DNA from: Bacteroidales bacterium
GTDB taxonomy: Bacteria > Bacteroidota > Bacteroidia > Bacteroidales > UBA932
Reading direction: 5' to 3'
Assembly: GCA_030695025.1 (NCBI GenBank)
Contig: JAUYTX010000013.1
Location: 1 to 64,000 of the forward strand
Length of the DNA: 64,000 nt
The notes under the pieces were generated by a model. The model ran no database searches, was not told the DNA's origin, and saw nothing but the letters and a program-made list of their open reading frames with translations. This document shows positions 19,882 through 43,436 of the stretch, piece after piece. Numbering within the stretch: position 1 is the stretch's first letter; the number at the start of each line of letters is the position of its first letter. Both the position numbers and the translations under genes were made by a program.

Positions 19882-19910
19882 AAAAACGCAGTGAATTTCG
19901 CTGCGTTTTT
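19882..19910 (+). terminator. Rho-independent terminator
   Basis: AAAAACGCAG-tgaatttcg-CTGCGTTTTT just after the receptor stop codon. Confidence 0.85.
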
Positions 19911-19922
19911 TATTTGCTAATT

Positions 19923-20099
19923 CCCGAATCACTCAACTCAAAGGCAACATTTGTTTTCCGATAATTTTCAGCGGCTACTTTTCGGGAACGACGAGGACTG
20001 TTTGACGACCGAAGGGAGGAGTTCCGCAGTCGCCGAAAAGTACCAGGAAAATTTGAGGGCACCCTAAAACAATCGGTTGCCGGAGTTGAGTGATTTGGG
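19923..20099 (-). repeat. Dispersed palindromic repeat, copy A
   Basis: Ends CCCGAATCACTCAACTC / GAGTTGAGTGATTTGGG form a near-perfect stem; interior matches the reverse complement of copies B and C with a handful of substitutions. Confidence 0.9.
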
Positions 20100-42859: not shown

Positions 42860-42887
42860 TTCTCCGCGCCACTCTCTTCTGTTTTCC

Positions 42888-43058
42888 CAACTCCTCAACT
42901 CCGGCAACCGATTGTTTTAGGGTGCCCTCAAATTTTCCTGGTACTTTGCGGCGACTGCGGAACTCCTCCCTTTGGTCGTCAAACAGTCCTCGTCGTTCCC
43001 ACAAAGTAGCCGCTGAAAATTATCGGAAAACAAATGTTGCCTTCGAGTTGAGGATTTG
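42888..43058 (+). repeat. Dispersed palindromic repeat, copy B
   Basis: Terminal TCCTCAACTC (42892-42901) / GAGTTGAGGA (43045-43054); 5 differences from copy C over the 163-bp core. Confidence 0.92.
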
Positions 43059-43265
43059 CTCAGTAGGTCATAAAGTCTTGGTAGAAATTATATATCTGTA
43101 TAAATATTCGGTTTTTTCGGAAGTTGTATTTCAAGTTGTTTCACAAACAACTGATTAGCTTATAAATACGGAATTGACTTAACTGTTTTCAACTCTGTCA
43201 ATTTTATATCATGCTTGTTATGTGCAACTTACAACACAACTTAAAATTCCACTTTTTTTGCTTTC

Positions 43266-43436
43266 CAACTCCTCAACTCCGGCAACCGATTGTTTTGGGG
43301 TACCCTCAAATTTTCCTGGTACTTTGCAGCGACTGCGGAACTCCTCCCTTTGGTCGTCAAACAGTCCTCGTCGTTCCCACAAAGTAACCGCAGAAAATTA
43401 TCGGAAAACAAATGTTGCCTTCGAGTTGAGGATTTG
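43266..43436 (+). repeat. Dispersed palindromic repeat, copy C
   Basis: Terminal TCCTCAACTC (43270-43279) / GAGTTGAGGA (43423-43432); direct orientation relative to copy B. Confidence 0.92.

Follow-up and report, generated by a model that had tools for sequence, protein, structure and literature searches.

Three palindromic hairpins in the window

The 64,000-nt window, the whole stretch of Bacteroidales DNA that was analysed, contains three imperfect hairpins of ~170 nt (Table 1). Copy A is flanked by an outer-membrane beta-barrel gene and by a tRNA, with EF-P beyond it; copies B and C form a tandem pair with a gyrase B-like gene on one side and an AraC-type regulator on the other. As the sequence-only reading of this DNA had described, A is the reverse complement of B and C, with identities to copy A of 95% for B and 92% for C. 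Copy A folds at -76.8 kcal/mol (z -7.35), a value that 0 of 200 shuffled sequences equalled, and copy B gives z scores of -3.51 as RNA and -4.57 as DNA.

Three compensatory changes had been proposed between A and B/C, and all three are present: A:T to C:G and C:G to T:A at adjacent pairs of the terminal stem, and T:A to G:C in TACTTTT/AAAAGTA. The next T:A pair of the terminal stem has become an A.G mismatch. Neither terminal inverted repeats nor a target duplication could be recognised at the window copies, and GGATCACGA is absent from the whole window. Beside copy B, at position 42861, TCTCCGCGCC is a fragment of another palindromic repeat (TCTCCGCGCCA...TGGCGCGGAGA).

Table 1. Hairpin copies and associated features, in window coordinates.
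Feature	Position	Strand	Remark
Terminator-like intrinsic hairpin adjoining copy A	19882..19910	+	Downstream of the left gene
Copy A, whole hairpin	19923..20099	+	+ strand holds the GACGACCGAAGGGAGG apex
Copy A, inner conserved unit	19952..20061	+	Model R1, E 6.7e-12
Copy A, apex module GAGGACTGTTTGACGACCGAAGGGAGGAGTTCCGCAG	19993..20029	+	Read in the sequence; same pattern in other genomes
Copy B, whole hairpin	42888..43058	-	Sequence
Copy B, inner conserved unit	42923..43032	-	Model R1 match
Copy B, apex module	42955..42991	-	Sequence
Spacer of the B-C tandem pair, 207 nt	43059..43265	.	B-spacer-C stretch found again at other loci, in G001 and G023
Copy C, whole hairpin	43266..43436	-	Sequence
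Copy C, inner conserved unit	43291..43410	-	Model R1 match
Copy C, apex module	43333..43369	-	Sequence

An undescribed repeat family at gene ends

The window hairpins are copies of an undescribed, non-coding palindromic DNA repeat family scattered at gene ends. Copy B has 12 matches in its own genome, nine of which are close copies or long fragments; two of the 12 (L011 and L012) belong to a second, diverged sub-family. For a wider search we used a covariance model (R1) that spans the inner ~120 nt and was built from nine sequences and a structure made by hand because the MAFFT alignment (A1) paired poorly. With it, copies turned up in 19 of 25 congeneric genomes, at 1 to 21 copies each, bearing out the earlier suggestion of a dispersed palindromic repeat. 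Named carriers include Bacteroidales bacterium CF, whose complete genome is CP006772, Rikenellaceae UBA12406 and HGW-Bacteroidetes-5, -7 and -8. Within a family sample of 200 genomes from 26 genera, copies occurred in this genus only. Copies in TM6 and Eubacteriales MAGs (L382, L394) were rejected as marking true hosts; the contigs are probably misbinned ones of Bacteroidales, as the Bacteroidales type of the elements and, on the TM6 contig, an OmpA-like gene suggest.

Searches of phages, plasmids and IMG/VR gave neither the full element nor its tip, and the element's sequence was not found in the PMC literature. An already annotated RNA family had been named as one way in which the proposal might fail, and the Rfam covariance models gave no match.

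Copies are located at the 3’ ends of genes and avoid the space between divergent genes. Among classifiable copies, 38 lay between convergent genes, 22 and 12 in co-directional settings and 1 between divergent genes; 9 more had a neighbour missing.

Covariation and conservation of the inner hairpin

The inner hairpin, of ~120 nt, is capped by a near-invariant tip of ~37 nt that reads GAGGACYGTYYRACGAMCRNAGKGAGGMGTTCCG in the orientation of copy A. In an alignment of 107 distinct copies, which was fitted to the model and is biased towards it, 27 of 39 pairs had both partners changed in one copy or more; double-changed cells numbered 506 against a shuffled mean of 147 (0 of 500 shuffles), and slid controls collapsed. 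A nine-sequence MAFFT alignment that was not fitted to the model gave the same verdict. Random substitution among genome-wide copies, the other outcome that would have counted against the proposal, is therefore not what was found: the covariation is real and far above shuffled controls.

The apex pseudoknot suggested earlier is not supported, as GACTG/CAGTC shares bases with GGAC/GTTCC and the two pairings exclude each other. The 3’ half of GACTG/CAGTC, moreover, is seen in the alignments only in the sub-family of the window.

Comparison of orthologous loci gave, at several of them, 94-97% identity for the inner unit and mostly 80-93% for the flanks. The unit looks to be under constraint, and its greater conservation than that of adjacent genes at these loci hints at either a host function or copy-to-copy conversion; it is the strongest argument against a purely selfish reading.

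Outer arms and inverted copying

Beyond the inner unit the arms are specific to each locus. In most copies the two arms are complementary to each other, with 20 to more than 60 pairs (a few, L185 and L188-L190, are exceptions). The mean match score of a left arm with its own right arm was 18.3, compared with 8.8 for arms of other loci. G-U pairs are better tolerated by an RNA, so an excess of G.T over A.C mismatches might be expected of RNA-level selection; the two counts were about equal, at 56 G.T and 70 A.C in the outer arms and 31 and 25 in the inner unit. Locus-specific, self-complementary arms, some of which include a host terminator, and which show no G-U excess, fit inverted copying of DNA by template switching better than they fit selection on an RNA. 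The sequence-only reading had offered either selection for a folded strand or replication through one, and the alternatives appear to divide between the two parts of the element: the inner unit looks constrained, and the outer arms point to template switching.

Orthologous loci allow such copying to be followed. At one locus (O1) the element lies in the same orientation in six species. Between genomes G007 and G020 the flanking genes are 93 and 90% identical and the core 97%, yet the arms differ; we excluded low arm identities at orthologous loci as evidence, as they derive partly from ungapped comparison. A 42-nt segment of one G007 flank matches the opposite G020 flank, inverted, at 98%, and the G007 arm extends into the final codons of the gene on the right. 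At the same locus a terminator is present as two flanking, inverted copies in G011 and G013 and as a single bidirectional one in G022 and G024; these last two may be losses instead of never-occupied sites. The empty site for copy L158 of G006, found in G010, likewise has one terminator instead of two. We infer from these sequence comparisons that template switching, by which hairpin arms are known from published work to arise (PMC8794818), did the inverted copying.

Terminators between convergent genes can also be enclosed in extended palindromes that lack the element, as at the B/C locus of G001 (L069) and G007 (L260); the latter reads ATCTGCGCCGCAATT...AATTGCGGCGCAGAT.

Units with inverted ends and direct repeats

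Some copies elsewhere in the genus lie in MITE-like units. In G001, one copy sits in a 400-bp unit (L353) with GGACCACGATCAAAAGTTG ends (GGACCACG...GTGATCA) and CCAATTTT on both sides, a direct repeat matching at 8 of 8 positions. A 194-bp relative that lacks the core (L356, also G001) is bordered by TCAAGTAA and TCAAGTAC, which agree at 7 of 8 bp, and in G019 copy L180 has ends AGTTTCCCACCT...AGGTGGGAAACT with GTTAACCT outside, again 8 of 8. All three have terminal inverted repeats, and family-1 copies occur in both orientations within the L353-type unit. Of the two candidate identities offered earlier, a structured RNA or a hairpin-type non-autonomous mobile element, these G001 and G019 units favour the latter.

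A search of the 25 genomes with the family-1 end pattern matched 7; many ends lay at contig edges, and the two same-contig pairs that we opened span 400 and 194 bp, too short for a transposase, so that no cognate autonomous element was found there. Because terminal sequences vary between lineages, no single transposase accounts for all copies. For many type-I copies, insertion boundaries are inseparable from arm extension.

A tip found beyond the genus

The family is apparently found beyond Bacteroidales, in an unrelated gut phylum: the exact apex pattern matches MAGs labelled Ca. Gastranaerophilales, five genomes of which gave 2-11 model matches each, with the assignment taken from record titles and the weakest matches near threshold. 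In these MAGs the tip consists of an asymmetric CTGTTTGA / GAGTT loop that encloses small, interchangeable hairpins (CTGTTTGA-[hairpin]-GAGTT), with stems such as CGACC/GGTCG, GCTGCAC/GTGCAGC and GCCTCAC/GTGAGGC. The minimal tip, TGTTTGAGCGAAGCGAGTT, occurs on 54 viral-contig stretches (L453-L506), many of them near-identical by descent; a control pattern made by reordering its letters had 0 viral-contig matches. In a few viral contigs (L454, L461, L462, L475) it caps unrelated complementary, terminator-like stems. This recurrence, which is not a count of independent origins, is suggestive of a recurrent cap. One viral contig (L511) carries TGTTTGAGCGTTAGCGAGTT four times at ~3.1-kb spacing.

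A tip common to MAGs of two phyla and to unrelated viral-contig hairpins points to a recurrent hairpin-capping module. We raise, as a speculation that is rather unlikely to hold, the idea that the asymmetric loop with its interchangeable hairpin is recognised by structure instead of by end sequence, and that any palindrome around the loop would thereby become mobile. Were that so, phyla would carry repeats with only the tip in common, their arms being drawn from the host through inverted copying.

Origin of the hairpins

We consider the window hairpins to be, somewhat more probably than otherwise, non-autonomous palindromic mobile repeats of a MITE- or REP-like kind, built on the recurrent capping module and possessing a conserved folded core. 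The repeat would spread by DNA transposition in trans and, once inserted, the hairpin would provoke template switching during replication, which would rewrite one arm from the other and copy flanking DNA, including a terminator, in inverted form. Such copying could yield both the compensatory changes and arms unique to each locus with no selection at the RNA level. Retention of the tip might reflect binding by a host factor or by a mobilising enzyme, or a role in capping and nucleating the fold. The window copies, with neither inverted ends nor a target duplication that could be recognised, and the lineage-dependent terminal sequences count against this reading.

The main rival, to which we assign a minor but appreciable probability, is a structured ncRNA or 3’-UTR element (an RNA stabiliser, a protein-binding tip or a transcription barrier) selected at each locus. 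The strong inner covariation, the position at gene ends and the conservation of the inner unit relative to its flanks all agree with it, as does the better folding as RNA of the GACGACC-apex strand in 41 of 42 copies; that bias, however, is not independent across copies because they have loop sequences in common. The G.T and A.C counts given above, copy numbers ranging from 0 to 21 among congeners and the empty Rfam search speak against an RNA. Compensatory changes are commonly taken as proof of a functional RNA; a family with locus-specific self-complementary arms, no G-U signature and traceable inverted copying allows template switching to be weighed against selection.

That a RAYT (Y1/HUH) transposase moves the repeat in the form of folded single-stranded DNA, in the manner of REPs and REPINs, seems improbable to us. 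RAYT (PF01797) proteins are present in 22 of the 25 congeners, and single-strand folds are the type of substrate that such enzymes use (PMC6006769). The element nevertheless adjoins a RAYT gene in only one of 20 RAYT neighbourhoods (L245), by our estimate about chance level, so the search for RAYTs that had been proposed turned up the genes but no linkage. Several RAYT genes, those of G000 and G023, are instead flanked by a different palindrome, TCTCCGCGCCA; copy-bearing G005 (12 copies) and G020 (5 copies), both incomplete genomes, gave no RAYT match; and the 8-bp direct repeats point to a DDE enzyme. Least probable of all, and already disfavoured, is an origin in which template switching makes the hairpins locally, at terminators, and they move little if at all. 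Element-free extended palindromes do exist around terminators, as in G007 at the B/C locus, and around RAYT genes, but spreading is needed to explain a near-invariant core common to dozens of loci that are otherwise unrelated, as well as the direct repeats beside some copies.

The mobile-repeat reading sets the family beside several known systems. It resembles Bacteroidota MITEs such as those of Porphyromonas gingivalis (PMC4596501) in being non-coding and dispersed, with inverted ends and 8-bp direct repeats at some copies here; unlike them, it has a folded core that is conserved and a tip that is fixed, its ends and arms vary by lineage and locus, and a cognate IS was not found. With REPs, the GTAG- and CGTC-tagged palindromes of RAYT systems (PMC3733652, PMC6006769), it has in common dispersed extragenic palindromes and RAYT genes in most genomes. 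It differs from them in length (~120-170 nt against 20-40) and in not flanking RAYT genes, which here lie beside another repeat; no GTAG/GTGG foot was noticed in the alignments. As in template-switch (quasipalindrome) mutation of hairpins (PMC8794818), perfect arms would be created and maintained with multi-base compensatory changes; here, however, they belong to a dispersed repeat family and reach terminators and a neighbour's stop codon.
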